Source: Aurantiacibacter spongiae
GTDB taxonomy: Bacteria > Pseudomonadota > Alphaproteobacteria > Sphingomonadales > Sphingomonadaceae
Reading direction: 5' to 3'
Assembly: GCF_003815535.1 (NCBI RefSeq)
Contig: NZ_RPFZ01000001.1
Coordinates: forward strand, 992,001-1,056,000
DNA: 64,000 bases
Part shown: in pieces, positions 6,454 to 60,945 of the stretch
Numbering within the stretch: the first letter of the stretch is position 1
Layout of the letters: every line of letters begins with the position of its first letter
Position numbers and translations under genes: made by a program
The notes under the pieces: generated by a model
What the model was told of the DNA's origin: nothing
What the model saw: the letters and a program-made list of their open reading frames with translations, nothing else
Database searches by the model: none

Positions 6454-6456
6454 GGT

Positions 6457-8609: not shown

Positions 8610-8740
8610 TGTCGACGTTGTGCCTCTCGGGTCAGCTCGGGAAGGTCAGGCATTCTCTCGGCGAGGACGTTCACCACCCCCGCGATGTCCCGAAGCGGTG
8701 GGCGGAAATCGAAACTTGTGCAAGCGCGGTGCGACACCAT
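8606..8740 (-). other. Short coupled ORF or gene remnant upstream of the lyase
   Basis: A 44-codon frame (MVSHRACTSF to LTREAQRRQ) ends in a TGA that overlaps the lyase ATG as ATGA, the arrangement used for coupled genes here. The frame stays open further upstream but there it overlaps the uxuB-like gene. No good ribosome site precedes the ATG. It may be the 3' scar of a gene lost when the two operons were joined, or chance. I recognise no family. Confidence 0.2.
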
Positions 8741-8763
8741 CGGCAAGGCATTCCGGTCGATTC

Positions 8764-39560: not shown

Positions 39561-39593
39561 GTGATCGTTCACAAGCGCAAATATGAACGTTCA
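39561..39593. promoter_or_regulatory. Pair of LacI-type operators between TonB receptor and halogenase genes
   Basis: TGATCGTTCA (39562-39571) is one base from palindromic, and TGAACGTTCA (39584-39593) is a perfect palindrome. Their centres are 22 nt apart, two DNA turns. Both sit in the divergent promoter gap. The same AACGTT core precedes the GH3 gene. They are good candidates for the LacI regulator at 34995-36074. Confidence 0.6.
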
Positions 39594-39677
39594 CAACGCG
39601 GGACGTCTTGTGTAACATTTTTGCATTACTCGGCGCATCGAGGCATGAACGCGGCGGATAGGGAGAGCGGTTTCGGC

Positions 39678-41199: not shown

Positions 41200-41217
41200 C
41201 TGTCACGGGGAAGTCAT
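41200..41217 (+). promoter_or_regulatory. Pho-box-like sequence at the start of the response regulator gene
   Basis: CTGTCACGGGGAAGTCAT fits two 7-mers like CTGTCAY with a 4-nt spacer (second unit AAGTCAT, 5 of 7). It overlaps the ATG at 41216 and its GGGGAAG ribosome site. If it is an operator, the true start may be ATG 41267. Confidence 0.3.
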
Positions 41218-41941
41218 GCTTCCGCGCCAGAGTGCCCTGACGAAAGACAGGGGGCCGCCCGGCACGATGGATCGCGTAACGATATTCGCAACCGACAGGG
41301 AAGTGGCACAATTCGACGAATTCGATCAGGGCGAAGTCGTCATACGCTTCGCGCTGATAGGACCGCACGGACCCGGCGGGCTCGTCGAACAGCCCTGCTG
41401 GTTCTTCGTCGACTGGGTGATGGACACGATGAGCGGTCTGGAGATGGTCCGGCGGCTTCGCGCGGACCCCCGCTTCGCGGAAAGCCACATCACGATGGTG
41501 CTGGACGAGGATGATCCGGACGAGCGGCGCCGTTCGCTGAAGGCCGGGGCCGACGATTACATGGTCGGCCCCCTGAAACGCAACGCCATGCTCGATCGCG
41601 TCCTCGCCCTGTTTGGCAGCGCTGTTCGCCCGGCAGCCCGGACGGCCTTGGCGCTGGGCGATCTTTCCATCAATCCCGCGGCAGAGCAGGCGCGCTGGCG
41701 GGGCCGCCCGGTGGTCCTGCGCCCCAACGAATTTCGCCTGCTGCGCTTCATGGCGGAAAATCCGGACCGGGTGCTGTCGCGGCAGGAACTCGTGGAGGCG
41801 CTCGGCAAGGCAGGCGATCCGAATTACCTGCGCACGGTGGATGTCTGGATCAAACGGCTGCGCATGGGCCTGCGCGATGTCGATGCCGGCCACCTGCTGC
41901 GCACGGTTCACGGCAAGGGCTACGTTCTCGACCGCCCCTGA
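41216..41941 (+). CDS. PhoB/OmpR-type response regulator with atypical receiver
   Basis: The 241-residue protein has a receiver domain and a PhoB-type winged helix (about 140-240: LSINPAAEQARWRGRPVVL, YLRTVDVWIKRLRMGL, VHGKGYVLD). The putative phosphoacceptor is D66 in FFVDWVMDTMSG. The receiver lacks the usual acidic pair (VTIFATDRE), the Thr/Ser switch is replaced (MVLDEDD) and the conserved Lys is G118 (MVGPL), so it may not be phosphorylated normally. ATG 41216 has a GGGGAAG site; M18 at 41267 is an alternative start. No histidine kinase is adjacent. It lies between the halogenase and a convergent TonB receptor. Confidence 0.83.
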   Translation: MLPRQSALTKDRGPPGTMDRVTIFATDREVAQFDEFDQGEVVIRFALIGPHGPGGLVEQPCWFFVDWVMDTMSGLEMVRRLRADPRFAESHITMVLDEDDPDERRRSLKAGADDYMVGPLKRNAMLDRVLALFGSAVRPAARTALALGDLSINPAAEQARWRGRPVVLRPNEFRLLRFMAENPDRVLSRQELVEALGKAGDPNYLRTVDVWIKRLRMGLRDVDAGHLLRTVHGKGYVLDRP

Positions 41942-41947
41942 GAGGCT

Positions 41948-41986
41948 GCCGGGCGGCAACGGACCCGGTATCCGATGCCGCCCGGC
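41948..41986. terminator. Long hairpin between convergent regulator and TonB receptor genes
   Basis: GCCGGGCGGCA (41948-41958) pairs with TGCCGCCCGGC (41976-41986) over a 17-nt loop, between the regulator stop and the receptor stop. There is no U-run on either side, so efficiency is uncertain. Confidence 0.45.
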
Positions 41987-41993
41987 GTCCCGT

Positions 41994-44777
41994 TCAGAAA
42001 GTCAGCGCCAGCGATGCGCCCAGGGTGGTGCCCACATCGTAGGTGTTGATCTCGGCGCGCTGCGTTCCGTCGGTCTGGTATTCCTCGTGCCGGCGGCCGA
42101 GGATGTTGCGCGCTTCCAGCTTGAATTCCGCGTTCAGTCCGCGAAATTCGAAGCCCTGACGCGCGACGAGATCAAGGCGGAAGCCGGGATCTTCGATAAT
42201 GTCCGGCAAACCGGCCGTACCGCGGCTCGTTACCCGCTTGCTCGCATAGCTTCCAAGGACGGTCAGCTGTTGCAGCTTATCTGTGTCCTGCAGGCTCAAC
42301 TGAAGGTTGGCGAGATGGTCGGACTGGCCGGTAAGCGGCACGCCGTCATTGAACAGGTTGCTGGCAGGCGTTGCCCCGCCGGGGAAGAGCAGGGTCGTAT
42401 CCCCGTCCGAAACCGATATCGCGGAATCGGTGTAGGTATAGTTGGCGAACAGGGCCAGTTCCTTTGTCTGGAAGAAACCGCCGACGTCGTAGAGGCCGAT
42501 CGTGTACTGCGCATCGACCTCCACACCCTTCAGGGTGGCGCTGGGGGCGTTGGCAAAGCTCGTCAACTGCGCGTTGTCGGAAAAGCTCGAGAACGCCTCG
42601 ATCGGATTTTCGATATCCTTCCAGAACCCTGCGACCGACACCCGGTCGCCGCCGCCGAAGTAGTATTCTGCACGCACTTCGTAATTCGTCAGTTCGCTGT
42701 CGATCAGCAGCGGATTGCCGTTGAACTGACGGTTGGTTTCGGGATCGTAGTAGGTCTGGAAGATAAGTTCTCGAAACTGGGGTCGTGCCAGCGTGCGCGA
42801 GGCGCTCGCACGCAGTTGCAAGTCGTCGATCGGTTCAAAGGTGACGGTCGCGGCGGGCAGCCAATAATCGTTCTCGAGTAGCGTGGAGGCGTTCGAAGTC
42901 AGGGAATCGGCGAACAGCTCGACCGGATTGACCGTCTGCTTCGCATCCTCGTAGCGCACGCCTGCATCAATCTGGACGCGGTCGAGGATCTGCCAGTTGA
43001 TCTTGCCGTAGCCGCCATGAATTTTCAGCGCGGCCGCGAACGCCGGATTGGCTTCCGTCGATTCGATGAGGCCGATATCGTAATATTCGATCACCGCATC
43101 GCCAAGCAGAAGGTCCGGTCGGAACAGGCCGATGCCGTCGGGAAAGCTGGTTGGCGCGTTGAACAGGAATTCGCGGCGCTCCGAATAGCGATCAGTGTCG
43201 CTGTAGGCATAACCGACCGTTGCGGTCAGGGTGTCCAGCACGGGATAGGAGATATCGATGCCCGCCGAATACAGTTCTTCCTGCAGGTCCGAGAACACGA
43301 CGCTCGCATCGCCCGTCTGGCGATCGAGTACGTTGATGAACTGATCCGACAACGGACCGTTGGCGTTGTCGCGGACGTAGGTGAAGGTATATTCGTAGGG
43401 TGCCTCGCGATCGGTGCGCGCATAGCCGCCCCGCAGATCGACACCGAGATCGCCGAATTCGAGTTCCGCCACCAGTTGACTGTCGATCAGCTGGCGTTCG
43501 AACCAGCCGGTCTGCTGCTGCTGGATGGAATCATCATCCTGGAAATCTTCTCCCTGCGACAAGGTGGCCTGCTTTACCGTGTCGCGGATGAACAGGTTGG
43601 TCCACCGGATACGGCTGTCGCCGAACTCGAGTCCGAAGCCGAGCAGACCGTTCACGAGAATGCGGTTGTCGGTCACCAGGTCGTTGAAGTCGGTATCGAG
43701 CGAGAAATCCGCGAGGATGGACTGTGACGTGATATCGCGCGTGCGCCATTTGTTGCTGATCGAAGCGGTGGCGATGACCCCCAGCTGGCCGTCGGAAAAC
43801 ACGTCGAAGGACGTACCGGCGGTTATCCCGCCCGAGAAGTTGACCGGCAGATCGCCGATTTTCTGGAGCAGCACGAGGTTCGGGTTGCCCAGCTGGAATG
43901 CGATGTCGGCTTGGGTAAAGGGCGTACCGTCGACGTTCTGGGCCGAATCCAGCGGCACCTGACTGAGCCGCAATCCGCTGTTGAAATAGGTCTGCAGGGC
44001 AGGCGGTACGTCACGCGTGCCGTCGTCGAAGCCGAACCAGTCATAGTCGCTGCCGTAATAGGCAAGGCCGTTGTGGAAGGTGGTTTCGGTGTCGGCGCTG
44101 ATTCCGCCGCTGATCGTGACGAAGCTTTCGTCCGGCACGGCGCTGGTGGTCAGGTTGATGACACCGCCGCCGAATTCGCCGGGGAAGTTCGCCGAATAGG
44201 TTTTCTGCACCAGGCTCGAGGCGACCACGTTGGTCGGGAAGATGTCCAGCGGGACGACGCGGCTGAGGGGTTGCGGAGAAGGCAGCGGCAGGCCGTTCAG
44301 CAGCGCGAGCGAGTAACGATCGCCCAGACCGCGAACATAGACGAAGCCCTGCCCCTGCACCGAAAGGCCGGTCACACGGCTCAACGCGCCGGCGATATCG
44401 CCCTCACCGGTGCGTGCAATGTCCTCGGTCGACAGGACGCTTATGACCTGGCTGGAATTGCGTGTGGGGTCGCGGTTGATGCGACCGGTGACGACGATCG
44501 CGCCCCCGGGGATGGAAACGTCGGGATCCTCGTAACCCTCGTCGGGCAGCTGCGCGTCGGCGGGCGTCTGTTCATCCGGATTGGGTCCGGGTATCGACTG
44601 CTCGTTCTCGGCATTGCGCTCGGCCTCCTCCTCGGTCGGGGCCTGCGCGCCCCCGGCCCCGGTCTGTCCCGCGCCCTGTGTGCCCTGCGCCAGCGCGGCA
44701 ACGGGCATGGTGAGCGCGGTGGTCAGCGCGAATGCGGCAAGCAGCCGCCGGGAAATCCTGGACGTTCTATCAAGCAT
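41994..44777 (-). CDS. TonB-dependent receptor (putative phosphate-linked locus)
   Basis: The 927-residue product has a signal peptide ending MPVAALAQ, an acidic linker (about 30-90), TonB-box region GGAIVVTGRINRD and plug STEDIARTGEGDIAGALSRVTGLS, then VYVRGLGDRYSLALLNGLPLPS and a 22-strand-type barrel ending in GASLALTF. It follows the lipoprotein gene by about 98 nt on the same strand across a hairpin, which suggests a lipoprotein-receptor pair for a ligand. The ligand is unknown; phosphate-containing compounds are a guess based on Pho-like boxes upstream. Confidence 0.93.
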   Translation of the reverse strand: MLDRTSRISRRLLAAFALTTALTMPVAALAQGTQGAGQTGAGGAQAPTEEEAERNAENEQSIPGPNPDEQTPADAQLPDEGYEDPDVSIPGGAIVVTGRINRDPTRNSSQVISVLSTEDIARTGEGDIAGALSRVTGLSVQGQGFVYVRGLGDRYSLALLNGLPLPSPQPLSRVVPLDIFPTNVVASSLVQKTYSANFPGEFGGGVINLTTSAVPDESFVTISGGISADTETTFHNGLAYYGSDYDWFGFDDGTRDVPPALQTYFNSGLRLSQVPLDSAQNVDGTPFTQADIAFQLGNPNLVLLQKIGDLPVNFSGGITAGTSFDVFSDGQLGVIATASISNKWRTRDITSQSILADFSLDTDFNDLVTDNRILVNGLLGFGLEFGDSRIRWTNLFIRDTVKQATLSQGEDFQDDDSIQQQQTGWFERQLIDSQLVAELEFGDLGVDLRGGYARTDREAPYEYTFTYVRDNANGPLSDQFINVLDRQTGDASVVFSDLQEELYSAGIDISYPVLDTLTATVGYAYSDTDRYSERREFLFNAPTSFPDGIGLFRPDLLLGDAVIEYYDIGLIESTEANPAFAAALKIHGGYGKINWQILDRVQIDAGVRYEDAKQTVNPVELFADSLTSNASTLLENDYWLPAATVTFEPIDDLQLRASASRTLARPQFRELIFQTYYDPETNRQFNGNPLLIDSELTNYEVRAEYYFGGGDRVSVAGFWKDIENPIEAFSSFSDNAQLTSFANAPSATLKGVEVDAQYTIGLYDVGGFFQTKELALFANYTYTDSAISVSDGDTTLLFPGGATPASNLFNDGVPLTGQSDHLANLQLSLQDTDKLQQLTVLGSYASKRVTSRGTAGLPDIIEDPGFRLDLVARQGFEFRGLNAEFKLEARNILGRRHEEYQTDGTQRAEINTYDVGTTLGASLALTF

Positions 44778-44835
44778 TGTACGATCCCGCGTAAGGATGA
44801 CCGGCCCGCCCGTCGCGGGCCGCGACTATGGGAAA

Positions 44836-44860
44836 GGGGGCGCGGGGAAAACGCGCCCCC
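44836..44860 (-). terminator. Hairpin between lipoprotein and TonB receptor genes
   Basis: GGGGGCGCG (44836-44844) and CGCGCCCCC (44852-44860) form a 9-bp stem with a 7-nt loop. On the minus strand only TTTCC follows. It may be an attenuator that lowers receptor expression relative to the lipoprotein. Confidence 0.4.
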
Positions 44861-44875
44861 TCAACCAGCTCCGGA

Positions 44876-46453
44876 TCAGTAGACTGGCAGGGTCAGGCAG
44901 TTGCCGGTGTTGTTACCGAACGTGATCGCGGCCGAATCGCAGGTCCAGCCCTGGGTCCAGTCGTTCGATGCGGAAACCGCACCGATGAAGCTGGCCGATT
45001 CGAAGAAGCTGCTGAGCGAGGTGACATCGAAGATCGGCATGTAGCCATCCTCGTTCGCTCCGTTCAGATAGCCGTTCTGGATCGTGTTGTCGTAATCGAG
45101 CGTGTTTCCGGTCCCGGAAGTTAAGATGGCCTCCACATCGGCGACCGTCACACCGTCGCTGCCGGCTCGGAAATTGGTCTGGCAATCGAGCGCAACCGAA
45201 TTAAAGCGCGGCGGGCCGACGTCGTCGAGGCCGGCATTGGCGGCCCGGATCGTCTCCTGATCGTCGATCCGGATGCATGGCGTACCGGACGACGACTGAT
45301 CGATGACCACACCATTGTACAGACCGTAGTCGGTTCCGCCCCGCAGACGGATCACCTGGTCGCCCGATCGGCGCTGGATGAAGGTGAAGTTCGCTACCTG
45401 GGTGTTCTGACGCGGGGTCTGATCCTCCAACCCGTTGCTCGAATCCGCCTCGATCATCGTGTCGCCGACGCCGCTGCGCTGCGCGGCAAGGACGTACTGG
45501 AAGTTCGCCTTCACCCCGGTGTCGGTGTCGAGCGAATCGTCCTCCGCACCGGCGACGATGAGGTGGGAGAGATTGACGCGGCCGCCGAAGAACTCCGCGC
45601 CGTCGTCGGAACTGTTGACCGACTGGATGTAACTGAGGTCGGTCCCCGAGCCGACGCCACCGGTCGTCAGCGACTGCAGCTCGTTATCGCCCGAAAGCAC
45701 GAAGCCGGAGAAGCGTATCTGCACGTAGCTCATCGAACCCGAGCTGTCGTCGGGAGTGGCTCCGCCGAAGAAGTTCGGATCCGCCGCACCTTCGACCTGA
45801 CGTTCGCAGTTGACGGTACCCGGCGTCGCGCCCGGCTGGAAGCAGTCCGTCACCGGCGCGCGGCCCGACAGGACTACACCGCCCCACTGACCGGAAGAAT
45901 TGTCGTTGTTGAGACCCAGGATGTTGTCACGGCTGGTAAAGATGATCGGGCGATCTTCGGTGCCGTTGGCGTCGATCGAGTTGCCGCGCGTCACGTTGAG
46001 GAAAGACGAGCCGCTGGCATAGATGATGACTCCGGGCTCGATAGTTAGTTCGACATCGGTATCGTCGAAGCCATCGCTGTTGTCGGGAGCGGGACCGCCG
46101 TCGGTGCCCACGCTGACCTGGCCCGGCAGGCGATAGAGCAGTCCGGGAACGTAGGAGAGCGTGGACGAGCTGTTGAACCGGATCGGCGTGGCGCAGACGC
46201 GGTATTCGCCGGTGGGGCCGGAAATCGTTCCCTCGTCGGTCAATCCTTGCGCGTCGGCGATGGTCGGGCAACCGGCAGCGGCCGTCACGCCGCCACTCGT
46301 CGGAGTCGGCGTGGGTGTCGGGCTCGGCGTCGGGCTGGGATTGTTGATGATGATGTCGCCACCAGTGCCCGGCGAAGCGATCTCGTCGGGACCGCAGGCG
46401 CTCAACGCCAGCAAGGAGCACCCGAGAATAAGGTTACGAGAAATGTTGGTCAC
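44876..46453 (-). CDS. Surface lipoprotein with Pro/Thr linker and beta-helix-like body
   Basis: The 525-residue protein starts at GTG 46453 after GAGGGG; the lipobox is SLLALSAC. After acylation come a tract PSPTPSPTPTPTPT and a Gly/Asp/Asn-rich domain with ELTIEPGVIIYASGSSFLNV, SIDANGTEDRPIIFTS and GQWGGVVLSGRAPV. Such repeats occur in secreted right-handed beta-helix-like proteins paired with TonB receptors in several phyla. Four or more Cys suggest disulfides. Function is unknown. Two Pho-box-like sites lie upstream, and a TonB receptor gene follows. It may capture a ligand at the outer surface for that receptor (inference). Confidence 0.72.
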   Translation of the reverse strand: MTNISRNLILGCSLLALSACGPDEIASPGTGGDIIINNPSPTPSPTPTPTPTSGGVTAAAGCPTIADAQGLTDEGTISGPTGEYRVCATPIRFNSSSTLSYVPGLLYRLPGQVSVGTDGGPAPDNSDGFDDTDVELTIEPGVIIYASGSSFLNVTRGNSIDANGTEDRPIIFTSRDNILGLNNDNSSGQWGGVVLSGRAPVTDCFQPGATPGTVNCERQVEGAADPNFFGGATPDDSSGSMSYVQIRFSGFVLSGDNELQSLTTGGVGSGTDLSYIQSVNSSDDGAEFFGGRVNLSHLIVAGAEDDSLDTDTGVKANFQYVLAAQRSGVGDTMIEADSSNGLEDQTPRQNTQVANFTFIQRRSGDQVIRLRGGTDYGLYNGVVIDQSSSGTPCIRIDDQETIRAANAGLDDVGPPRFNSVALDCQTNFRAGSDGVTVADVEAILTSGTGNTLDYDNTIQNGYLNGANEDGYMPIFDVTSLSSFFESASFIGAVSASNDWTQGWTCDSAAITFGNNTGNCLTLPVY

Positions 46454-46527
46454 GGCTGACGGTCCCCTCAAAAACCGGTGAATGAATCGCGAATTGCGTG
46501 TCGCGACTCGCCAGCTAGGACCGTGGG

Positions 46528-46545
46528 GTGACAGTTTTCGGTCAG
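46528..46545 (-). promoter_or_regulatory. Pho-box-like site proximal to the lipoprotein gene
   Basis: Read on the minus strand it is CTGACCGAAAACTGTCAC: two 7-mers with an AAAA spacer, the second matching CTGTCAY fully. It lies about 75 nt upstream of the lipoprotein GTG. Confidence 0.4.
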
Positions 46546-46596
46546 TGTGACAGCGCGGTGTCGCTTTCCACAGGGTTTGCGGCGAGACGAGCCATT

Positions 46597-46614
46597 GTAT
46601 CAGTTTTGTGACAT
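46597..46614 (-). promoter_or_regulatory. Second Pho-box-like site in the lipoprotein/TPR gap
   Basis: Read on the minus strand it is ATGTCACAAAACTGATAC, with the same AAAA spacer as the site at 46528-46545 and 11 of 14 repeat positions matching CTGTCAY. It lies 69 nt upstream of the TPR gene on the other strand, so it could serve either direction. Confidence 0.4.
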
Positions 46615-46682
46615 TGTGACGCTTTTGTTGCGCCTCGCCCGGTACCGGTGCACACTTCATCGAACGCATTGGGAGAAAAGCG

Positions 46683-47048
46683 ATGAAGACGTCCCTGCTT
46701 CTGGGTGTGGCAGCCCTGCTTGGCAGCGCCGCCCCCGTCCTTGCCGCGCAGGCTGACCAGCACGAAGTGGCCTACGATCAGATCGCGGCCGGAGAAGCCC
46801 AGCAGGCGATCGCGCGCCTGGAAGCCGCGAGAGAGCGCATGCCGGATGACCCGGCGCTGCTGATCAATCTCGGCGCCGCCTACGCCGCGACGGGCAATTT
46901 CGAAAAGGCCGGTGAATGCTATCGCGCCGCAATCGCCAGCGACGACCGCTACGAGCTCGAACTCGCCAACGGCGAATGGATGGATCCGCGTAGCGCGGCA
47001 CGGCTCGCCCTGCGTGAACTCGAACGTGACATGGTGGCCATGCGCTAG
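46683..47048 (+). CDS. Small periplasmic tetratricopeptide repeat protein
   Basis: The 121-residue protein has a signal peptide (MKTSLLLGVAALLGSAAPVLAAQ) and two or three TPR helix pairs: EVAYDQIAAGEAQQAIARLEAA and LLINLGAAYAATGNFEKAGECYRAAI. The ATG follows GGGAGAAAAGCG. TPRs bind partner proteins. It lies between the lipoprotein and the T4SS genes and is transcribed towards the latter, 168 nt before virB1, so its partner may be the receptor system or the secretion system. Confidence 0.8.
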   Translation: MKTSLLLGVAALLGSAAPVLAAQADQHEVAYDQIAAGEAQQAIARLEAARERMPDDPALLINLGAAYAATGNFEKAGECYRAAIASDDRYELELANGEWMDPRSAARLALRELERDMVAMR

Positions 47049-47158
47049 GCCGGTGCCCCTCCAACGCTGAAGTCCTCTCGAACGATCCATCGCACGCGTC
47101 GTCCGTTCCAGCGGGAATGGACGACGTTACTGCGCGTTGCGAGTACCTGATCTCGGGA

Positions 47159-47176
47159 CTGTCACGCCTGTGTCAT
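47159..47176 (+). promoter_or_regulatory. Pho-box-like site upstream of the virB operon
   Basis: CTGTCACGCCTGTGTCAT consists of CTGTCAC and GTGTCAT separated by 4 nt; 13 of 14 repeat positions fit CTGTCAY. It ends 39 nt before the virB1 ATG, the distance expected when PhoB replaces the -35. No clear -10 follows. Confidence 0.5.
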
Positions 47177-47215
47177 TTCATGTAAGCAAGGCCCGGGCAT
47201 TGGAGGGTTGCACAG

Positions 47216-47863
47216 ATGATTCTGCGTGGTTTCACGTCTGCCGCCGCATTCGTGCTGGCAGTGCTCGGCGCTGGCAGCGCCCGGGCGGACGTGCTGGAAG
47301 TAGGTGACGATGGTGAGGCGCGCTGGATCGCCGGCGCGTCCGTCGCTGCACCGAGCTTCGCCATGACGAATGCACAGGCCGCCGCGCTGGAGGAAGTCCC
47401 GGTCGATGCGACGGCTCTCGTGCCCGAATCCGCCGTCGCCGATACCGCCTACCAGGCCCGCATCGTCCCAAGGGCCTATGCTGCCAAGGTAGCCGAACTG
47501 GCCGCCCGGTTCGACCTTTCCCCCGCCCTCATCGAGGCTTTGGTGTGGCAGGAAAGCCGCTGGCGCGCCGACGCCGTTTCCCCGGTCGGGGCCGTGGGCC
47601 TGGCGCAGCTGATGCCCGGTACCGCGCGCGAGCTCGGCGTCAATCCGCGCGATCCGTTCGCCAATCTCGAGGGCGGAGCGCGGTACCTGCGCGAACAGCT
47701 CGATCGCTTCGACGGCGATATCGAGCGTGCGCTGGCCGCCTACAACGCCGGACCCGGGCGGGTGATCCGTTCAGGCGGGGTTCCGGCGATCACTGAAACA
47801 CGCGGATACGTCGCGGCCGTCATGGGCCGCCTGTCCGACCACTCGCGGAGTTCCGACCGATAA
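47216..47863 (+). CDS. virB1: Lytic transglycosylase, VirB1-type
   Basis: The 215-residue protein has a signal peptide (ending GAGSARA) and a goose-lysozyme-type SLT domain: LIEALVWQESRW with the catalytic Glu, SPVGAVGLAQLMPGTAREL, and LAAYNAGPGRV. It opens peptidoglycan for the secretion channel. It is the first gene of the cluster and overlaps virB2 by one base (TAATG). A Pho-like box lies upstream. Confidence 0.87.
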   Translation: MILRGFTSAAAFVLAVLGAGSARADVLEVGDDGEARWIAGASVAAPSFAMTNAQAAALEEVPVDATALVPESAVADTAYQARIVPRAYAAKVAELAARFDLSPALIEALVWQESRWRADAVSPVGAVGLAQLMPGTARELGVNPRDPFANLEGGARYLREQLDRFDGDIERALAAYNAGPGRVIRSGGVPAITETRGYVAAVMGRLSDHSRSSDR

Positions 47864-48168
47864 TGCAAGTTCTTGCCCGTCTCGCCGCAGCTGCGACGCT
47901 GCTTTCAGCCGTGGCCTTCCCGTCCGGAGCGCTTGCGCAGGATCCCGCCGGTTCCGGCCCGATCAATGCCGCTCTGGGCTGGATGCAGGGTACGCTTCTG
48001 GGGACGGTCGCCACCACCGTGGCGGTGATGGCAGTGGCCGCCGTTGGCTTCATGATGCTGACGGGACGGATGAACTGGCGCTTTGGCGCGACCGTGATCC
48101 TTGGGGTCTTCATCATCTTCGGAGCCGGCTCGATCGTGGCGGGCATCCAGGGCGCGGCGGTGGGCTGA
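47863..48168 (+). CDS. virB2: Type IV secretion pilin-like subunit, TrbC/VirB2
   Basis: The 101-residue protein has a long signal sequence (residues 1-25, ending GALAQ) and two hydrophobic helices (LGTVATTVAVMAVAAVGFMML and FGATVILGVFIIFGAGSIVAG) around a short loop TGRMNW. This is the TrbC/VirB2 pilin plan. It may form a pilus or a channel stalk. It is 12 nt before virB3. Confidence 0.85.
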   Translation: MQVLARLAAAATLLSAVAFPSGALAQDPAGSGPINAALGWMQGTLLGTVATTVAVMAVAAVGFMMLTGRMNWRFGATVILGVFIIFGAGSIVAGIQGAAVG

Positions 48169-48180
48169 GGAAATACGCTC

Positions 48181-48462
48181 TTGCAACTTGTCCGCCACCC
48201 CGTCCACCGCGCGCTCACCCGACCGCAGATGTTCGCCGGGGTGACGCTGAATTTCTTCGTCATCAATGCACTGGTGACGGTGGAGGCGTTTCTCATCACG
48301 AAAAGCTGGTGGATCGTTCCAGTGCCATTCGTGATGCATGTCATCGGTTATTTCGCCTGCCTGCGCGAACCGCGCATCTTCGACCTGTGGCTGACGAAGG
48401 TCAGCAAGTGCCCGCGGGTAAAGAACTACAAGCGCTGGGGCTGCAACAGCTACGCCGCGTGA
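48181..48462 (+). CDS. virB3: Type IV secretion protein VirB3
   Basis: The 93-residue inner-membrane protein has the VirB3 pattern: LVRHPVHRALTRPQMFAGV, then two membrane helices, then FACLREPRIFDLWLTKVSK. The start is TTG at 48181, with GAGGAA 8 nt upstream, consistent with a low-expression start. It interacts with VirB4 in other systems. Confidence 0.85.
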   Translation: MQLVRHPVHRALTRPQMFAGVTLNFFVINALVTVEAFLITKSWWIVPVPFVMHVIGYFACLREPRIFDLWLTKVSKCPRVKNYKRWGCNSYAA

Positions 48463-48520
48463 CGCGCGTGGCCTACACGAATTTCCGCCGCGCCAATCGC
48501 AGCGGCGAGGGAGCAACGCG

Positions 48521-50953: not shown

Positions 50954-52155
50954 CCAATGCAGCGGCAACCTGCCAGCGCGCGATGGAAGGCGTGGGCTCG
51001 GGCATCGGCTCGTCCCTGCGCGGGGTTGACTGCGCCGCGTCCGAAATGGCGCAAGCCGCCTTCAACCGCCTGTTCAGCGCAGACGGCACATTCGGCCCCG
51101 CCTTGACCATCCTGCTGACATTGTGGATCGCTTTTCTGGGTTTCGGCCTCATCACCGGCCGTACCCGGCTGGGTCTGTCCACGCTCACGCCGCGCATGGT
51201 GACGCTGGTGCTGGTCCTGACCTTCGCCACGAGCTGGGTCGCCTTCCAGAGCGTGTTCTGGAACCTTGCCGTCGGCGCTCCGGACGAAATCGCCACTGTC
51301 CTTATGGGCACCGATGGCAGCGCCACCACGATCTTCGCGGACAAGCTCGACGTGGTGATGCTTTCGCTGATGCAGGCGTCGGGCGATGGGGCGATGGACG
51401 CCAATACCTCGTTCTTCTCTCCGCCGGGATTACTCTGGTCGGGCGGCACCATGCTGCTGCTGGGGACGGTAGGCGTGCTGGCGACCTGCAAGATCGCGCT
51501 TGCCATCCTCATGGGCCTGGGTCCGATCTTCATCGTCCTGGCTCTGTTCACCGCCACCCGCGGGCTGTTCACGGGCTGGTTAAAGGGCGTGGTGATGATG
51601 GCGCTCGCGCCGCTTTTCGCCGTGCTCGGCGGATCGCTGATGCTGGAACTAGCGGTCCCGGTCCTGTCCGGAATCAGCACGGTTGGCGGCAAGATCGACG
51701 TGCGGGCGGCCATGGCCTTCTTCATGATCGGAGCGGTTCATCTGGCGCTGATGTTCATGGTCCTCAAGGTAGCCGCTACCATGGTGAAGGGCTGGAGCGT
51801 GTTCGGCCTGGCTGCCAATGACAGGGCGGACGAACGCGGCGGTCCCGACTTCGCTGCGTCGCAGACCAGCGCGTTCGCGCGCGGTGCTTCTGACCCTCGC
51901 GGGCTCCCATTGCCTGCGTCGGAGCGGGCAGCGGGCGCCGCGTCCATCGCACGCCGCGACATCCGCGTGCCTGCCGCAACACCGGTTGCTGCCAACGACA
52001 GCGGGCCGGGTCATTCGACAAGTCGCGAAACGCGCCTTGTCAGCGCAGGGTCATCTCGAAACGGCGATAGCGATGCGAAAGCCGCCGTCAGCCGGGTGCG
52101 GGGGGTGGGCAGCCGCTTCAAGTCCGCGCCAGTCCGATCAACGGAGAAATTCTGA
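50950..52155 (+). CDS. virB6: Type IV secretion channel protein VirB6/TrbL
   Basis: The 401-residue protein has at least five membrane helices (for example ALTILLTLWIAFLGFGLITG and LLLGTVGVLATCKIALAIL) and a central large periplasmic loop, the VirB6 plan. The C-terminal ~100 residues are a hydrophilic Ser/Arg-rich tail. It overlaps virB4 and virB9 starts, so translation is coupled. Confidence 0.88.
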   Translation: MTNAAATCQRAMEGVGSGIGSSLRGVDCAASEMAQAAFNRLFSADGTFGPALTILLTLWIAFLGFGLITGRTRLGLSTLTPRMVTLVLVLTFATSWVAFQSVFWNLAVGAPDEIATVLMGTDGSATTIFADKLDVVMLSLMQASGDGAMDANTSFFSPPGLLWSGGTMLLLGTVGVLATCKIALAILMGLGPIFIVLALFTATRGLFTGWLKGVVMMALAPLFAVLGGSLMLELAVPVLSGISTVGGKIDVRAAMAFFMIGAVHLALMFMVLKVAATMVKGWSVFGLAANDRADERGGPDFAASQTSAFARGASDPRGLPLPASERAAGAASIARRDIRVPAATPVAANDSGPGHSTSRETRLVSAGSSRNGDSDAKAAVSRVRGVGSRFKSAPVRSTEKF

Positions 52156-52952
52156 TGCATCGCCAGTCCCTGTTCACCGCCTGCGCCGCCGTCGCGATGA
52201 TCGCGGGCCCGCTGGCCGCACCTGCCGCCGCGGACGATCCGCGCATGGTCGAACGTCTCTACGACCCGGGTCAGGTGGTGCGGGTGGAGGGCAAGGTGAA
52301 CGTGCAATCGACCATTCGCTTCGGCGAGGGCGAGGCGATCGAAAACGTCGCCATCGGCGATTCGACCGCCTGGCAAGTGACCCCCAACCGCCGCGCCAAT
52401 CTGTTGTTCGTCAAGCCGCTGGAACCGCGCGCCAGCACGAACATGACCGTCGTCACAAACCGCCGCACCTATCTGTTCGATCTGGTGGCGACGCCGAACA
52501 TGCGCAACCCGCTCTACATGCTGACCTTCACCTACCCGGTCGAGCTGCAGCCTGTTGAGGAACCCCGGATGGCCGAAGCGCGAAACCCCGGGGTGCTACC
52601 CAATGCGGTAGAGGTCGCCGCGGCGAACGACGACTACGCCGTGGTCGATCCTGCCAGCCTTAACTTCGACTGGTCCAGCGAGGGCGACGCTTCGCTCCTG
52701 CCCGAGGAAGTCTATGACGATGGCAACGCGACCTTCCTCGCCTGGCCGGTAGGCACGCCCATGCCTGCCATACTGGTGAAAGATCACGAGGGTACCGAGG
52801 GGCCTGTCAACTTCGCGGTGCGCGGGGACACGATCGTCCTCGACCTGGTGCCGCGGGAAATCATCCTGCGCAGCGGCGACAACGCCGCGACGCTCGTCAA
52901 CAACGGCACACCCAGCGCCACCACCGCCGACGGCACGGCCCGCGGCGCCTGA
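52155..52952 (+). CDS. virB9: Type IV secretion outer-membrane core protein VirB9/TrbG
   Basis: The 265-residue protein has a signal peptide (ending APAAA) and the VirB9 N-domain (RLYDPGQVVRVEGKVNVQST, TVVTNRRTYLFDL) and C-domain (ATFLAWPVGTPMPAILVKD and later VLDLVPREIILRSGD). VirB9 with VirB10 forms the core ring. No VirB7-like lipoprotein precedes it. It overlaps the virB6 stop (TGATG). Confidence 0.92.
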   Translation: MHRQSLFTACAAVAMIAGPLAAPAAADDPRMVERLYDPGQVVRVEGKVNVQSTIRFGEGEAIENVAIGDSTAWQVTPNRRANLLFVKPLEPRASTNMTVVTNRRTYLFDLVATPNMRNPLYMLTFTYPVELQPVEEPRMAEARNPGVLPNAVEVAAANDDYAVVDPASLNFDWSSEGDASLLPEEVYDDGNATFLAWPVGTPMPAILVKDHEGTEGPVNFAVRGDTIVLDLVPREIILRSGDNAATLVNNGTPSATTADGTARGA

Positions 52953-52976
52953 CAACGGCAAACGGAGCACAGCTTC

Positions 52977-54155
52977 ATGAAACTCGCAATGCGCCTTCCT
53001 GAGACGACGCGACAGGCCGCGGCGAACGATGCCGACCCGCGCGATAGCGAATCGACCGAGATCATAGATCTGGCCAGCCGCACGTCCTATCCGGCGGTCG
53101 CCAATCGCAAGGGCAGGTCCGACGCGCTTGGTCTTGCCGCCGGCGTTGGCTTCGTCGCCCTGCTCGGTGCGGCTACCTTGTGGGGACTGAACGCGAGCCG
53201 GATGAAGGAAGAGACCGCCCCGGGCGACGGCGCTGTGCAGACCGCGTCCGTCGACCATTCCGCGCAGACCCAGGCCGGGTACGCTCCGACGCTTATTGAC
53301 GATCTTCCGGGTGCAGACGAGGGCACCGCGGGGGGATACGGTCCCGTTGCCGACCCGGCGCCCAGCCCCGTGCTGGCGCGCGAACCCGGCGGTCAGCCCG
53401 GCTACAACCCGACCGCCAATCCCTATTCCTCGCCCACGCTGGTCTTCGACGGCGGGACCGCGCCGACCAGCGCGGCAAACGCTGCTGCAGCAGCCGAGCA
53501 AGCGATGGCCACGACGCCCGAAGGCAGCGTCGTTCCGGGCGGCGGCGCAGCAGGCGAGTTCGCGGCTCGCGTCGGCGGTGTCGGGGGCGGTCCCGCGATC
53601 GCACGACGCGACGTCAATCCCGCGACCACGGTGACGCAGGGAACGATGATCCCCGCCATTCTCGAAACCGCGATCAACACCGACGTGCCCGGGTTCGTCC
53701 GGGCGGTGGTCAGTCAGGATGTGCGCAGCTTCGACGGCAGCCGGGTTCTTATCCCGCGCTCCAGCCGTCTGGTCGGTCAGTACCAGTCCGGATTGCAGGC
53801 CGGTCAGCGCCGGGCCTACGTCATTTGGACGCGGGTCATCCGCCCGGACGGGGTTACAGTCAGCCTGCAGAGCCCCGCCACCAGTTTCGATGGCACCGCC
53901 GGGTTGCGGGGCGACGTCGACAGCCATTTCTTCTCGCGCTTTGGTTCGGCCATGCTGCTTTCGGTCATCGGCGGCCTGTCAAACCTTGCCACCGGCGGCG
54001 CGTCGGTGGTGCTGGGTGGCGGGCAGAGTGCCGCGAACACCGCGCTTCAGCAGGACGGTCAGCGTTCGCCGACAGTCCGCGTGCGGATGGGTGAACCGAT
54101 CCGCGTCTATACCGCCCGCGACCTCGACTTCGGGCAGGCGCCGCGCGCCCGCTGA
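52977..54155 (+). CDS. virB10: Type IV secretion core protein VirB10/TrbI
   Basis: The 392-residue protein has a short cytoplasmic N-terminus, one membrane helix (LGLAAGVGFVALLGAATLWG), a Pro/Ala/Gly-rich region and the C-terminal TrbI beta-barrel with QGTMIPAILETAINTDVPG, SRLVGQYQSGL and VWTRVIRPDG. It spans inner and outer membranes in known systems. It lies 7 nt before virB11. Confidence 0.94.
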   Translation: MKLAMRLPETTRQAAANDADPRDSESTEIIDLASRTSYPAVANRKGRSDALGLAAGVGFVALLGAATLWGLNASRMKEETAPGDGAVQTASVDHSAQTQAGYAPTLIDDLPGADEGTAGGYGPVADPAPSPVLAREPGGQPGYNPTANPYSSPTLVFDGGTAPTSAANAAAAAEQAMATTPEGSVVPGGGAAGEFAARVGGVGGGPAIARRDVNPATTVTQGTMIPAILETAINTDVPGFVRAVVSQDVRSFDGSRVLIPRSSRLVGQYQSGLQAGQRRAYVIWTRVIRPDGVTVSLQSPATSFDGTAGLRGDVDSHFFSRFGSAMLLSVIGGLSNLATGGASVVLGGGQSAANTALQQDGQRSPTVRVRMGEPIRVYTARDLDFGQAPRAR

Positions 54156-54162
54156 CCGGTCG

Positions 54163-55179
54163 ATGAGCGCCGGGGTCCATGAGCTGACGGAGGCGACGGT
54201 CGCCGAAGACTTGCCGCAGGTACCCAGCGGTTCGGTCTATCTCGACGCCTATCTCGCGCCGTTCCGCGAATGGCTCGACCGCGATACCGTTACCGAAATT
54301 CTGGTCAATCGGCCGGGCGAAATGTGGGTGGAGGACGCTGCCAGCCCCGGCATGACGCGAGTGGAATTGCCGGCGGTGGACGACAAGCTGGTCCAGCGTC
54401 TCGCAGAGCAGGTTGCCCGCATCAGCCATCAGGGTATCAATCGCGAACATCCGCTTCTCGGCGCGACCCTGCCCGACGGCGCGCGCATCCAGTTCTGCGG
54501 GCCGCCCGCCACGCGGCGACACTGGGCGATGGCGATACGCCGTCACCGCCGGCTCGACCTTCCCCTGGATGCCTACGATTCCGGTCCGCTGAAACCAAGG
54601 GACGAGGCGGAGATGCCCGATCCGGTGCAGCAACCCGTTCCCTTTCTCCGCGCCGCCATCGCAGCCCGCAAGACCATTCTCATTTCAGGCGGCACCAGTA
54701 CCGGGAAAACGACCTTCCTCAACGCAATGCTCGGTGAAATTCCTCGCGACGAACGTGTCGTGCTGGTCGAGGATACGCCCGAACTGCGGCTGCCGGGTGC
54801 CAATGGAGTCGGCCTGGTGGCGGTCAAGGGAGAGCTGGGAGAGGCCAAGGTCGGTCCGAACGAATTGCTGCAATCGGCCTTGCGCCTCAGGCCCGATCGT
54901 ATCGTTCTGGGGGAATTGCGCGGAGCGGAAAGCGTCAGCTTCCTGCGCGCCATCAATACCGGCCACCCGGGAAGTTTCTCCACGATCCACGCCAATTCGC
55001 TACGCGGGGCGCTGGAGCAGCTCTCGCTGATGGTCATGCAGACCGGAATCGGTCTGACCCGGAGCGACACCATCGCCTATGCCGCCAACGTCATAGACGT
55101 GATCGTACAGCTCGAACGCAACGATGGCAGGCGTGGGATAGCGGCGATCGCGCGCTCGGCAGACATCGCCGAGGCTTGA
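54163..55179 (+). CDS. virB11: Type IV secretion ATPase VirB11
   Basis: The 338-residue protein has the VirB11 N-domain (EWLDRDTVTEILVNRPGEMWVE) and a RecA-like C-domain with Walker A SGGTSTGKTTFLN, an Asp box VLVEDTPELRLP and the His-box region TGHPGSFSTIHANS. It forms hexamers at the inner membrane. ATG 54163 is chosen; the upstream frame overlaps virB10. It is the last T4SS gene here. Confidence 0.95.
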   Translation: MSAGVHELTEATVAEDLPQVPSGSVYLDAYLAPFREWLDRDTVTEILVNRPGEMWVEDAASPGMTRVELPAVDDKLVQRLAEQVARISHQGINREHPLLGATLPDGARIQFCGPPATRRHWAMAIRRHRRLDLPLDAYDSGPLKPRDEAEMPDPVQQPVPFLRAAIAARKTILISGGTSTGKTTFLNAMLGEIPRDERVVLVEDTPELRLPGANGVGLVAVKGELGEAKVGPNELLQSALRLRPDRIVLGELRGAESVSFLRAINTGHPGSFSTIHANSLRGALEQLSLMVMQTGIGLTRSDTIAYAANVIDVIVQLERNDGRRGIAAIARSADIAEA

Positions 55180-55260
55180 CCCGCGCGCCACATGGTTGTC
55201 ATCTGACGGGACCAAACGGTGACCAGACCCGTTGTCAGACGTCACCAGTCGAGCGTTCCG

Positions 55261-57426
55261 ATGAGCACCGTTCCCGTTCCCGCACCTGTTCCCACCAGCA
55301 CCGATCCCGACGCGCTCACGCTGCAACAGCGATACTTCAACCGCGAATTAAGCTGGCTCGCCTTCAACGACCGCGTATTGGAGGAGGCGACGCGACTCGA
55401 TTACCCGCCGCTCGAGCGGCTGCGCTTCCTGTCCATTTCGGGCAGCAATCTCGACGAGTTCATGATGATCCGCGTCGCCGGACTTGCGGGGCAGGTTCGT
55501 ACCGGCGTTGCGGAAACGTCGATCGATGGGCGTACCCCGCGCCAGCAGCTCGCTGCCATCAACCAGCGCTTGCGCGAGCTTGAGGCCAAGCAGCAAAGGG
55601 CCCTGCTCGACCTGTGCCCGCTGCTGGAAGAAGCCGGCATCCACATAAGGGGCGAGGACCGGATCGACGACGGGGCGGAGGAATGGCTGCGCCAGTACTT
55701 CATCGATTCGATCATGCCGGTCATAACTCCGCAGGCGATCGATCCCGGCCATCCCTTTCCCTTCGTTGCGAACATGGGAATCGGCGCGCTTTTCAACCTG
55801 ACGCGAGAGAGCGATGGCAGCGCGCTCGTTGAAATGGTGCTGATACCATCCGCCCTGCCGCGCTTCATCAGAATTCCGGGCGAAGATGCGACCTATGTCG
55901 CGATCGAGCGGCTGGTCTGTCGTTATGCCGAACTGCTCTTCCCTGGATTCCGCGTGAACGGCGACGGTGTGTTCCGCGTACTGCGCGATAGCGACATCGA
56001 GGTGGAAGAGGAGGCAGAGGATCTGGTGCGCTTCTTCCGTAGCGCGATCCAGCGCCGCCGCCGCGGCCAGGTCATCGCGCTGGAGATCGACGAGAGTTTC
56101 GATCCCGAAGCCGAGGAATTGCTGCGCGACAAGCTGGGGCTCGAACAGGCGTTCGTGACCAAAACCGAGGGGATGCTGGGTATCGCGGGCCTGGATTGCG
56201 TGGTCGCCGAAGATCGCCCCGACCTCAAGTTCACGTCCTACTCGCCGCGCTTTCCCGAACGCATCATGGAACACGATGGCGACGCATTTGCCGCCATCGG
56301 GGAAAAGGACATCGTCATCCACCACCCGTACGAAAGTTTCGAGGTGGTGGTCGATTTCCTCCGTCAGGCCGCCCGCGATCCCAAGGTCATTTCCATCAAG
56401 CAGACGCTCTATCGCGCGGGTCAGCAATCGCCTGTGATCAGCGCCCTGTGCGCCGCGGCGGAAGCGGGGAAGTCGGTGACGGCAGTCGTCGAACTGAAGG
56501 CTCGTTTCGACGAGGAGCAGAACCTTAAATGGGCGGGAGAGCTGGAACGCTCCGGCGTGCAGGTCATCTACGGTTTCGTCGACTGGAAGACCCATGCCAA
56601 GGTCTCCATGATCGTGCGCGAGGAAGAAGGCGGGTATCGCACCTACTGCCATTTCGGCACCGGCAACTACCATCCGCTTACCGCGAAAATCTATACCGAC
56701 CTGTCCTACTTCACCGCCGATCCGGCGGTGGGACGCGACGCGGCCAAGCTGTTCAATTTCGTTACCGGCTACGTCCGCCCGCAAAAGCTCGAACAGCTCG
56801 CGATCAGTCCGGTGAACATGCTGGAAGTCCTCCAGGCCGACATCGAGCGCGAAATCGGCTTCGCCCGCGAAGGCAGGCCCGCCGCGATCTGGGCAAAGAT
56901 GAACTCGCTCACCGAACAGGGCATGATCGATCTGCTGTACGATGCCAGCCAGGCGGGGGTGCAGATCACGCTTGTCGTGCGCGGCATCTGCTGCCTTCGT
57001 CCCGGCGTTCCCGGCCTGTCGGAGAACATCCGCGTGAAGTCGATCATCGGCCGTTTTCTCGAGCATAGCCGGATCTATGCGTTCGGCGGGGGGGAAGAAC
57101 TGCCCGGCGACAAGGCCCGTGTCTACATCTCGAGTGCCGACCTGATGGATCGCAACTTGCACCGGCGCGTCGAATACCTTCTCCCGATAGAGAATGCGAC
57201 CGTTCACGATCAGGTGCTGGAGCAGGTGTTGCTCGCCAATCTTCTCGATACCGGGCAGAGCTGGCTGCTGGACGGGGAAACGGGGGAATACGAGCGCATG
57301 ACGCATGACGCCGAAGGCTTCAACTGCCACGATTACTTCATGACCAACCCGTCACTCTCCGGGCGCGGCGATGCGTTGAAGGACAGCCGCGTGCCGGATC
57401 TGTCGCTACGCAAGGGAGCGATATGA
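55261..57426 (+). CDS. ppk: Polyphosphate kinase 1
   Basis: The 721-residue protein has PPK1 motifs: RYFNRELSWLAFNDRVLEEA, ISGSNLDEFMMIRVAGL, the two phospholipase-D-like His motifs IKQTLYRAG and THAKVSMIVREE/CHFGTGNYH (autophosphorylated His in the latter region) and SSADLMDRNLHRRVEYL. It makes polyphosphate from ATP. ATG 55261 is chosen over GTG 55219, though neither has a strong ribosome site. The stop overlaps ppx as ATGA. Confidence 0.97.
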   Translation: MSTVPVPAPVPTSTDPDALTLQQRYFNRELSWLAFNDRVLEEATRLDYPPLERLRFLSISGSNLDEFMMIRVAGLAGQVRTGVAETSIDGRTPRQQLAAINQRLRELEAKQQRALLDLCPLLEEAGIHIRGEDRIDDGAEEWLRQYFIDSIMPVITPQAIDPGHPFPFVANMGIGALFNLTRESDGSALVEMVLIPSALPRFIRIPGEDATYVAIERLVCRYAELLFPGFRVNGDGVFRVLRDSDIEVEEEAEDLVRFFRSAIQRRRRGQVIALEIDESFDPEAEELLRDKLGLEQAFVTKTEGMLGIAGLDCVVAEDRPDLKFTSYSPRFPERIMEHDGDAFAAIGEKDIVIHHPYESFEVVVDFLRQAARDPKVISIKQTLYRAGQQSPVISALCAAAEAGKSVTAVVELKARFDEEQNLKWAGELERSGVQVIYGFVDWKTHAKVSMIVREEEGGYRTYCHFGTGNYHPLTAKIYTDLSYFTADPAVGRDAAKLFNFVTGYVRPQKLEQLAISPVNMLEVLQADIEREIGFAREGRPAAIWAKMNSLTEQGMIDLLYDASQAGVQITLVVRGICCLRPGVPGLSENIRVKSIIGRFLEHSRIYAFGGGEELPGDKARVYISSADLMDRNLHRRVEYLLPIENATVHDQVLEQVLLANLLDTGQSWLLDGETGEYERMTHDAEGFNCHDYFMTNPSLSGRGDALKDSRVPDLSLRKGAI

Positions 57427-58955
57427 TCGCTTCGGCAAAGCGAGACCTTCGCCTGAAGCATGACGGACCGCAGCGGGCGGTCATCGATATCGGCTCCAAT
57501 ACCGTGCGCCTGGTGGTCTATTCCGGTCCGCCCCGGGCACCTGCGGTTTGGCTTAACGAAAAGGTCACCGCCCGCCTGGGGCGCGATCTCGCGACGACCG
57601 GACGAATACCGGAGGACGCGCGAGAGTTGGCGCTGGCCGGTCTTGCGCGCTTTGCTCTCATCTGCCGCGATATCGGCGTCGCCGATGTCCAGACCGTGGC
57701 CACCGCTGCTACGCGGGACGCCTGCAACGGTCCTGCCTTCGTCGAGTCGGTCGAGAAGCTGGGTCTCGATGTGCGAGTCCTTACCGGAGAGGAGGAGGCG
57801 GAAGCCAGCGCTTACGGTGTAATCGGCGGTTTCCCAGGCGCGCGCGGCGTTGTCGCTGACCTTGGCGGCGGCAGTCTGGAGCTTGTCGCCATCGAGAACG
57901 GTAAAACCTCACACGGCGTCAGCCTGCCGCTCGGCACGCTACGCCTGCCAGCACTCAGGGAACGCGGTCCAACCGAATTCCGCAAGGCGGTGAAGAAAGA
58001 CCTGACCCGCGCCGACTGGGCGCGACATCACGACGGTCCCCTCTACATGGTCGGCGGCACGTGGCGCGCCCTGGCAACCTTCGCCATGCACAAGTCTGCC
58101 TATCCCCTTACCGATCCGCAGGCGTTCACGCTGCGTGTGGACGAGGCCGAAAAAATCGCCCGCAAACTCGAGAAGGCGGACCCGAACAAGCTCGAGGACA
58201 TACCAGGCATCTCGTCCTCGCGCGCTGCCGGCCTGCCGGATGCCGCGGCCATGCTCCGCCCGCTGTTGAAGGCGCTTAGACCCGATGGGCTAGTCTTCTC
58301 TTCCTGGGGGCTGCGCGAGGGTCTGTTATACCGCTCTCTCGATCCGCTGGTAGCGCAACGCGACCCCCTGTTGGCCGCGATTGCTCATTTCACCGAACCG
58401 CGCGGGGCAAGCATGTCGCATGCTACCCAGATTGCCGCCTGGACGAGCGAGGCTGCTCGCGGTGGGGAGCGCACGCATGAAGGCGAGGAGCGGCTTCGAC
58501 TGGCGGCGATGATGCTGGCAATGGCCCAGATGCGGCTCGAGCCGAACATGCGGCTGGCGCACAGTTTCGACTGGGCCATGGAAAAGCGCTGGCTGGGCCT
58601 TTCTCACCGTGGTCGGGCCCTGATCGGCGCGGCCCTGCGCGGGGCGTGCGGCAACCCCGAGCCGACCGATGCGCTGAACCTGCTGGCCAGCGGCAAGTCC
58701 CTGCGCGAAGCCGCCGGCTGGGGACTCGCGTTCCGTTTGTGCCGCAGGCTTGGCGCGGGGTCGCGCGCCTCCTTGCTGACCAGCAGGCTCAATCGAAGTG
58801 ATGATGCGCTGACGTTGTGGATCGAGCCAGAGCGGATGGAACTCGTCTCGGACATTGTGAAAAGCGAACTGGCGACCCTTGCGGAGTGGCTCGACCTCGA
58901 CTGGCGGATCGAGGAAGGCGTGCCAGCGCATGGAGCGGAAGGTCAGAACCCGTAG
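57423..58955 (+). CDS. ppx: Exopolyphosphatase / Ppx-GppA family
   Basis: The 510-residue protein has the Ppx N-terminal ASKHA domain (AVIDIGSNTVRLVVY, TAATRDACNG, LTGEEEAEASAYG, VVADLGGGSLELVAI) and a C-terminal helical region with HD-like features. It degrades polyphosphate or hydrolyses pppGpp. It is translationally coupled to ppk (ATGA). The 3' end overlaps the convergent TonB receptor gene by 13 nt. Confidence 0.95.
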   Translation: MIASAKRDLRLKHDGPQRAVIDIGSNTVRLVVYSGPPRAPAVWLNEKVTARLGRDLATTGRIPEDARELALAGLARFALICRDIGVADVQTVATAATRDACNGPAFVESVEKLGLDVRVLTGEEEAEASAYGVIGGFPGARGVVADLGGGSLELVAIENGKTSHGVSLPLGTLRLPALRERGPTEFRKAVKKDLTRADWARHHDGPLYMVGGTWRALATFAMHKSAYPLTDPQAFTLRVDEAEKIARKLEKADPNKLEDIPGISSSRAAGLPDAAAMLRPLLKALRPDGLVFSSWGLREGLLYRSLDPLVAQRDPLLAAIAHFTEPRGASMSHATQIAAWTSEAARGGERTHEGEERLRLAAMMLAMAQMRLEPNMRLAHSFDWAMEKRWLGLSHRGRALIGAALRGACGNPEPTDALNLLASGKSLREAAGWGLAFRLCRRLGAGSRASLLTSRLNRSDDALTLWIEPERMELVSDIVKSELATLAEWLDLDWRIEEGVPAHGAEGQNP

Positions 58956-60910: not shown

Positions 60911-60945
60911 GGCGGAGCTCGCCCTAACGCCGCGCGAGCTTGGCG

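Follow-up and report, generated by a model that had tools for sequence, protein, structure and literature searches.

A VirB-type type IV secretion system (T4SS) with predicted phosphate control, lacking VirB8 and the coupling protein VirD4, adjoins an ElpS-like lipoprotein and a TonB receptor; in related sphingomonads the same gene pair stands beside a type II secretion system (T2SS). Our preferred reading, to which we assign a probability of roughly 0.55, is that, in sphingomonads of the Erythrobacter group, the release of phosphate-scavenging proteins passed from the T2SS to this T4SS, which is Pho-regulated and independent of VirD4. The more specific proposal, that a T4SS without VirB8 or VirD4 non-orthologously replaced the T2SS as outer-membrane exporter of the Pho regulon and that a sister subclade switched back, is advanced tentatively, at slightly short of even odds.

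Gene content and conservation of the locus

The window (the whole stretch of 64,000 nucleotides that was analysed) comes from Aurantiacibacter spongiae, a member of the Erythrobacter group of sphingomonads with a genome of 2.86 Mb in two contigs. The closest VirB4 matches are from Aurantiacibacter and other Erythrobacteraceae (78-90% identity, 80 relatives). The initial annotation had placed a regulator, a TonB receptor, a lipoprotein, a TPR protein, virB genes, ppk and ppx between 41200 and 58955. All are present with every reading frame intact, in the order given here together with the predicted promoter elements.

41200-41217, forward: Pho box CTGTCAC-GGGG-AAGTCAT upstream of the response regulator (16.7 bits; 49 bp before the start at 41267)
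41267-41941, forward: PhoB-family response regulator with an atypical receiver (Trans_reg_C, Response_reg; alternative start 41216)
41994-44777, reverse: TonB-dependent receptor (tonB1), counterpart of Caulobacter CC0171 (plug and beta-barrel Pfam domains; TonB-Xanth-Caul)
44876-46453, reverse: ElpS-like outer-membrane lipoprotein, predicted right-handed beta-helix (lipobox conserved in orthologues)
46517-46534, reverse: Pho box CTGTCAC-CCCA-CGGTCCT upstream of elpS (10.9 bits, weak alone, position conserved)
46683-47048, forward: small periplasmic TPR protein (TPR Pfam domains)
47159-47176, forward: Pho box CTGTCAC-GCCT-GTGTCAT of the virB operon (26.2 bits)
47178-47183, forward: putative -10 element adjoining the virB1 box (conserved positions in aligned promoters)
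47216-47863, forward: virB1, lytic transglycosylase (SLT domain)
47863-48168, forward: virB2, pilin (TrbC/VirB2)
48181-48462, forward: virB3 (VirB3 Pfam domain)
48521-50953, forward: virB4 ATPase (CagE_TrbE_VirB)
50950-52155, forward: virB6 (TrbL/VirB6)
52155-52952, forward: virB9, directly downstream of virB6 with no virB8 between (CagX, VirB9)
52977-54155, forward: virB10 (TrbI, VirB10)
54163-55179, forward: virB11 ATPase (TIGR02788 295.7 bits, cut-off 249.95)
55219-57426, forward: ppk, polyphosphate kinase, 40 bp past virB11 (PP_kinase domains)
57423-58955, forward: ppx, exopolyphosphatase (Ppx-GppA)

Conservation of the block was counted in 66 relatives with a full upstream flank and, on the downstream side, in 62. 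virB1 is found in 66/66, the TPR gene in 58/66, the lipoprotein and TonB receptor in 54/66 and the regulator in 47/66. The TPR gene also adjoins elpS in several T2SS-type loci. Synteny of virB with ppk had been put forward for checking; ppk-ppx is a looser neighbour and follows virB in only 40/62 relatives. A tryptophan halogenase (FAD-dependent, 39561-41183) just upstream of the regulator is outside the conserved block, occupying the same place in only 8/66 full-flank relatives. After ppx comes a second TonB receptor (58943-60949, reverse strand), found downstream in only 7/62.

The regulator had been described as PhoB-like. It belongs to the PhoB family but is not PhoB itself, scoring 122 bits against a TIGR02154 cut-off of 296; the true PhoB, encoded with phoU and pst at C1:262 kb, scores 342 bits. 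With RTVDVWIKRLR against RTVDVHIRRLR, its recognition helix nearly matches that of PhoB, and the regulator may therefore bind the same box. In the receiver the Asp site is kept in nearly all aligned orthologues, and the acidic pair and the beta-5 Lys are not kept. Judged by its sequence, the protein is a divergent PhoB paralogue whose recognition helix is of the PhoB type and whose receiver is altered. Its start is most likely 41267, as in the orthologues.

Predicted phosphate control

Each of the boxes listed above consists of two TGTCA-type half-sites at an 11-bp period upstream of a gene. The box at 47159 (26.2 bits) stands well clear of chance, with 0 shuffled 64-kb windows containing a site at 20 bits; for the box at 41200 (16.7 bits), 0.05 sites are expected per window at 16 bits or more. 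A perfect TGTCAY-N5-TGTCAY occurs once in the genome, at virB1 (47159). When one mismatch is allowed there are 16 genomic sites vs 2 for the reversed control. Two of these one-mismatch sites are placed before the phosphate-selective porin gene (oprO/P), the first of the pst-phoU-phoB operon, and before phoB. The motif is therefore the Pho box of this genome.

Conservation was assessed by counting sites of at least 11/14, with the expectation taken from shuffles. Such a box precedes virB1 in 84/93 related loci (1.0 expected), at a median of 36 bp from the start, and precedes the lipoprotein in 59/68 T4SS-type loci (1.9 expected). A box lies about 44 bp upstream of the regulator start in 42/60 relatives (1.1 expected) if the start equivalent to 41267 is used; with 41216 the count is 7/53. 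Control starts are nearly free of boxes at this threshold: tonB1 0/67 (1.4 expected), virB9 2/80, virB10 1/79 and virB11 1/75. Lack of conservation of the boxes in close relatives had been named as grounds for abandoning the idea of phosphate control, and the boxes on these three promoters are conserved. Of the four Pho boxes originally claimed, those at 47159 and 41200 stand with high scores. The one placed at 46528 moves to 46517-46534 on the reverse strand, upstream of the lipoprotein. The fourth, at 46597, scores 4.1 bits; the corresponding upstream regions of TPR genes show slight enrichment (6/64 vs 1.2 expected) and we did not retain it.

The virB1 promoter has further conserved positions past the box, a T at +19 and +24 and a CA at +28/29 (75 aligned promoters). 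This T....T and CA pattern looks like a core promoter. In two relatives (L076, L081) the virB1 box is lost, and the regulator gene with its own box lies directly upstream of virB1. In another (L277, 151-5089) pstB-phoU-phoB is immediately upstream of the regulator-tonB-elpS-TPR-virB block. In the window ppk-ppx has no Pho box of its own. In 24/46 relatives (e.g. L048:18801, L065:18917) the final part of ppk contains a Pho-box-like site 88-94 bp upstream of ppx, which could reflect coding conservation or an internal promoter.

These conserved boxes, together with the occurrence of the motif at the pst and phoB promoters of this genome, strongly support the original suggestion that the T4SS is under phosphate control. 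Pho control of the virB, elpS and regulator promoters is well supported as a prediction from the boxes, and PhoB binding and induction at low phosphate would follow. It could be argued that the boxes serve only the local PhoB paralogue and a signal other than phosphate, since the regulator is syntenic in 47/66 relatives, has its own box and has an atypical receiver. We judge this decidedly unlikely. The motif also occurs on the genome's pst/phoB promoters and on T2SS-type loci, few of which carry the regulator, and ElpS and the T2SS are phosphate-responsive in Caulobacter (PMC2996285, PMC11208175). In the T2SS-type loci boxes of at least 11/14 precede elpS in 21/25 and gspC in 16/23; the regions upstream of tonB1 and gspE have none above chance.

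ElpS and the alternation of secretion systems

Homologues of the window lipoprotein occur in 157/248 sphingomonad genomes. Relatives of the T2SS type mostly have the arrangement (TPR)-lipoprotein-TonB-gspC-gspD-gspE-gspF (25 loci; Pfam-checked), and elpS is paired with a TonB receptor in both T2SS- and T4SS-type loci. As in the ElpS/CC0170 family, the lipoprotein and TonB receptor of the window stand beside secretion genes. The pair matches Caulobacter elpS-cc0171 by the arrangement it shares with the gspCDEF-linked sphingomonad homologues; the bridge for this assignment is the homologues beside gspC-F in sphingomonads rather than a direct sequence comparison with CC0170. The predicted ElpS structure (AlphaFold, pLDDT 85.7) is a beta-helix behind a disordered Pro/Thr linker. 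A fold search of the PDB gave weak beta-helix matches, none below E 0.001, and searches of PDB sequences, Pfam, NCBIfam and PHROGs gave no match. We note that outside the Erythrobacter group some families (L145, L146 and others) have an ElpS homologue of double length (about 900-1000 aa) in which the domain is present twice.

The distribution of the two systems was examined in 164 genomes of the window's GTDB family. A T2SS was scored as GspD over cut-off, and the VirB4 class to which the window belongs (class A) comprises sequences of at least 74% identity, set apart by a natural gap from the next value, 66%. The 123 ElpS-bearing genomes divide into 61 with a T2SS only, 61 with a class-A T4SS only, one with both and none with neither. 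All 23 genomes with neither system are without ElpS. A further 18 have one system and no ElpS, five of them of the T4SS type. The lipoprotein and VirB4 are no more than 15 kb apart in 54/62; for the lipoprotein and GspD this holds in 42/62. The one genome scored with both (G030) was discounted as a bearer of both systems, its T2SS being of a distant type. The window's own genome has a single secretin match to GspD (1.6e-33), which is far below the cut-off and was not accepted.

Mapped on a 100-genome rpoB tree, the alternation of T4SS and T2SS can be explained by about 2 changes and therefore does not amount to a large number of independent trials. Joint absence of the two systems has arisen 11 times on the tree, with no ElpS change running counter to it (median sign-test p 0.016). 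Within a genus that also includes T4SS-bearing genomes, a nested subclade with a T2SS keeps the regulator-tonB-elpS-TPR block; virB is gone and the T2SS is located elsewhere. The exchange may therefore also have run backwards in this subclade, the alternative being that an old T2SS was retained.

A Pho-regulated T4SS could have an unrelated job, such as attachment or cell contact through a VirB2 pilus, with the loss of the T2SS incidental. The retention of VirB1 and VirB2, the few events on which the exchange rests and the five genomes with the T4SS but without ElpS fit this explanation, which we hold to be unlikely. It would leave unaccounted for that 0/123 ElpS-bearing genomes lack both systems, that ElpS is lost along with the systems in independent lineages, and that both systems share a position beside the same gene pair with Pho boxes on both gspC and virB1.

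Composition of the secretion system

Of the subunits expected of a VirB/VirD4-type T4SS, the VirB4 ATPase, VirB6, VirB9, VirB10 and VirB11 are all present. No VirB8 is detected in the window's genome at E up to 10, and none over cut-off in 48/67 genomes with this T4SS. The virB6-virB9 gap is at most 54 nt in 94 loci, leaving no operon with room for VirB8. VirB5, VirB7 and VirD4 are also missing from the virB operon, and 38/67 of the T4SS genomes lack VirD4 genome-wide. A Gram-negative T4SS without VirB8 is unusual, and its function might be altered. More distant VirB8-less virB operons without Pho boxes are seen in other sphingomonads (L139, L141, L142, L143); in two of these (L141, L142) virB2 has genes for an OmpR-type regulator and a dioxygenase-like protein as neighbours.

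The window's genome does encode a TrwB-like coupling protein, found only on a separate TrwB/TrwC element (C1:1776 kb) away from virB, and we rejected it as a partner of the T4SS. At this element (L102, C1:1770000-1786000, 5930-11265) a TrwB-type coupling protein and a TrwC-type relaxase adjoin, without mating-pair genes. The pair is likely an integrated mobilizable element and might borrow a T4SS. Such an element, and the VirB8-containing clusters in the same family formed by VirB4 relatives at about 51-55% identity, would fit a T4SS that is a remnant of conjugation or a helper for mobilizable elements. We give this very little credence: the cluster is inherited vertically as part of the core genome in strict synteny, more than half of the T4SS genomes are without any VirD4, and the VirB8-containing relatives have no Pho box.

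The initial annotation favoured DNA uptake, in which a ComB-like VirB machine induced by phosphate limitation would bring in DNA as a phosphate source and ComEC would carry it across the inner membrane. DNA is plausible as a phosphate source, ComEC is present, the VirD4-less genomes are compatible with such a role, and DNA import was proposed earlier for the same incomplete cluster (PMC3338782, PMC4919336). ComEC is found in 59/60 genomes, with or without the T4SS; it does not vary with the presence of the system and as a discriminator is uninformative. Helicobacter ComB, also a VirB-type system without VirD4, has VirB7 and VirB8 and is not known to have VirB11. The window system differs in having no VirB8 and in keeping VirB11, as well as VirB1. 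Nor does DNA uptake explain why a T2SS alternates with this T4SS beside elpS. On these grounds (VirB8 missing and VirB11 kept, ComEC universal, T2SS alternation) DNA uptake is not supported over protein export, and we consider it unlikely.

Proposed function

Export of protein is proposed because the T4SS exchanges with the T2SS beside the same elpS-tonB pair and because VirD4 is missing. Gene content, the boxes and their conservation, the alternation and the absence of VirB8 and VirD4 are read from the sequence; the direction of transport and the substrates are what we infer. At low phosphate PhoR-PhoB, probably together with the local PhoB paralogue and its own Pho box, would switch on the regulator, elpS and virB promoters. 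The outer membrane would hold ElpS by its anchor. Sec or Tat would carry phosphate-releasing enzymes, or a protease that processes, across the inner membrane, and these periplasmic proteins would then exit through a VirB9/VirB10 channel powered by VirB4 and VirB11, a two-step route like that of pertussis Ptl. The TonB receptor would import the product and ppk-ppx would manage a polyphosphate store.

The Erythrobacter-type virB cluster is a core, vertically inherited feature that was previously without a known function; it can now be assigned a predicted regulon, a pair of partner genes and a machine that is its counterpart. If the T4SS does export phosphate-scavenging proteins, two unrelated secretion machines have been swapped for one job, which is unusual. 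It would also mean that VirB8 is dispensable to a Gram-negative T4SS, and would be relevant to the nutrition of abundant marine bacteria when phosphate is scarce.

Comparison with known systems

The virB2-3-4-6-9-10-11 cluster of Erythrobacter and Citromicrobium is the same cluster as that of the window. In PMC4919336 and PMC3338782 it is described as chromosomal, incomplete and co-inherited with the genome, with a TonB transporter near, and every Erythrobacter strain compared has it; a role in gene transfer or in importing DNA was suggested. A virB operon that is incomplete, passed on vertically and surmised to bring in DNA was to that extent already known. The portions of these papers that were consulted do not report Pho boxes, a link to ElpS or exchange with a T2SS. 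In the literature searched we found no description of the conserved Pho boxes, the ElpS partnership, the T2SS alternation or the consistent lack of VirB8.

Ptl of Bordetella pertussis is a VirB-type system without VirD4 that exports Sec-translocated periplasmic proteins (PMC8402538). The window system is alike in lacking VirD4 and keeping VirB11, with export here proposed from the genes. In Ptl, VirB8 and VirB7 are represented by PtlE and PtlI and VirB1 is missing, whereas the window system is the other way round, and the Ptl substrate is unrelated.

Another close parallel is the elpS-cc0171-T2SS locus of Caulobacter crescentus. There elpS (cc0170) encodes a surface lipoprotein that is made on phosphate starvation and is linked to extracellular alkaline phosphatase, and elpS and the TonB receptor gene cc0171 adjoin T2SS genes (PMC2996285); the T2SS lies within the PhoB regulon (PMC11208175). 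Both loci place a lipoprotein and a TonB receptor beside a secretion system with phosphate-starvation control, predicted from the boxes in the present case, and Caulobacter ElpS has an N-terminal lipid anchor, as the conserved lipobox predicts for the window lipoprotein. The window locus differs in having a T4SS rather than a T2SS, together with an atypical PhoB paralogue and a TPR gene, and often with ppk-ppx following.
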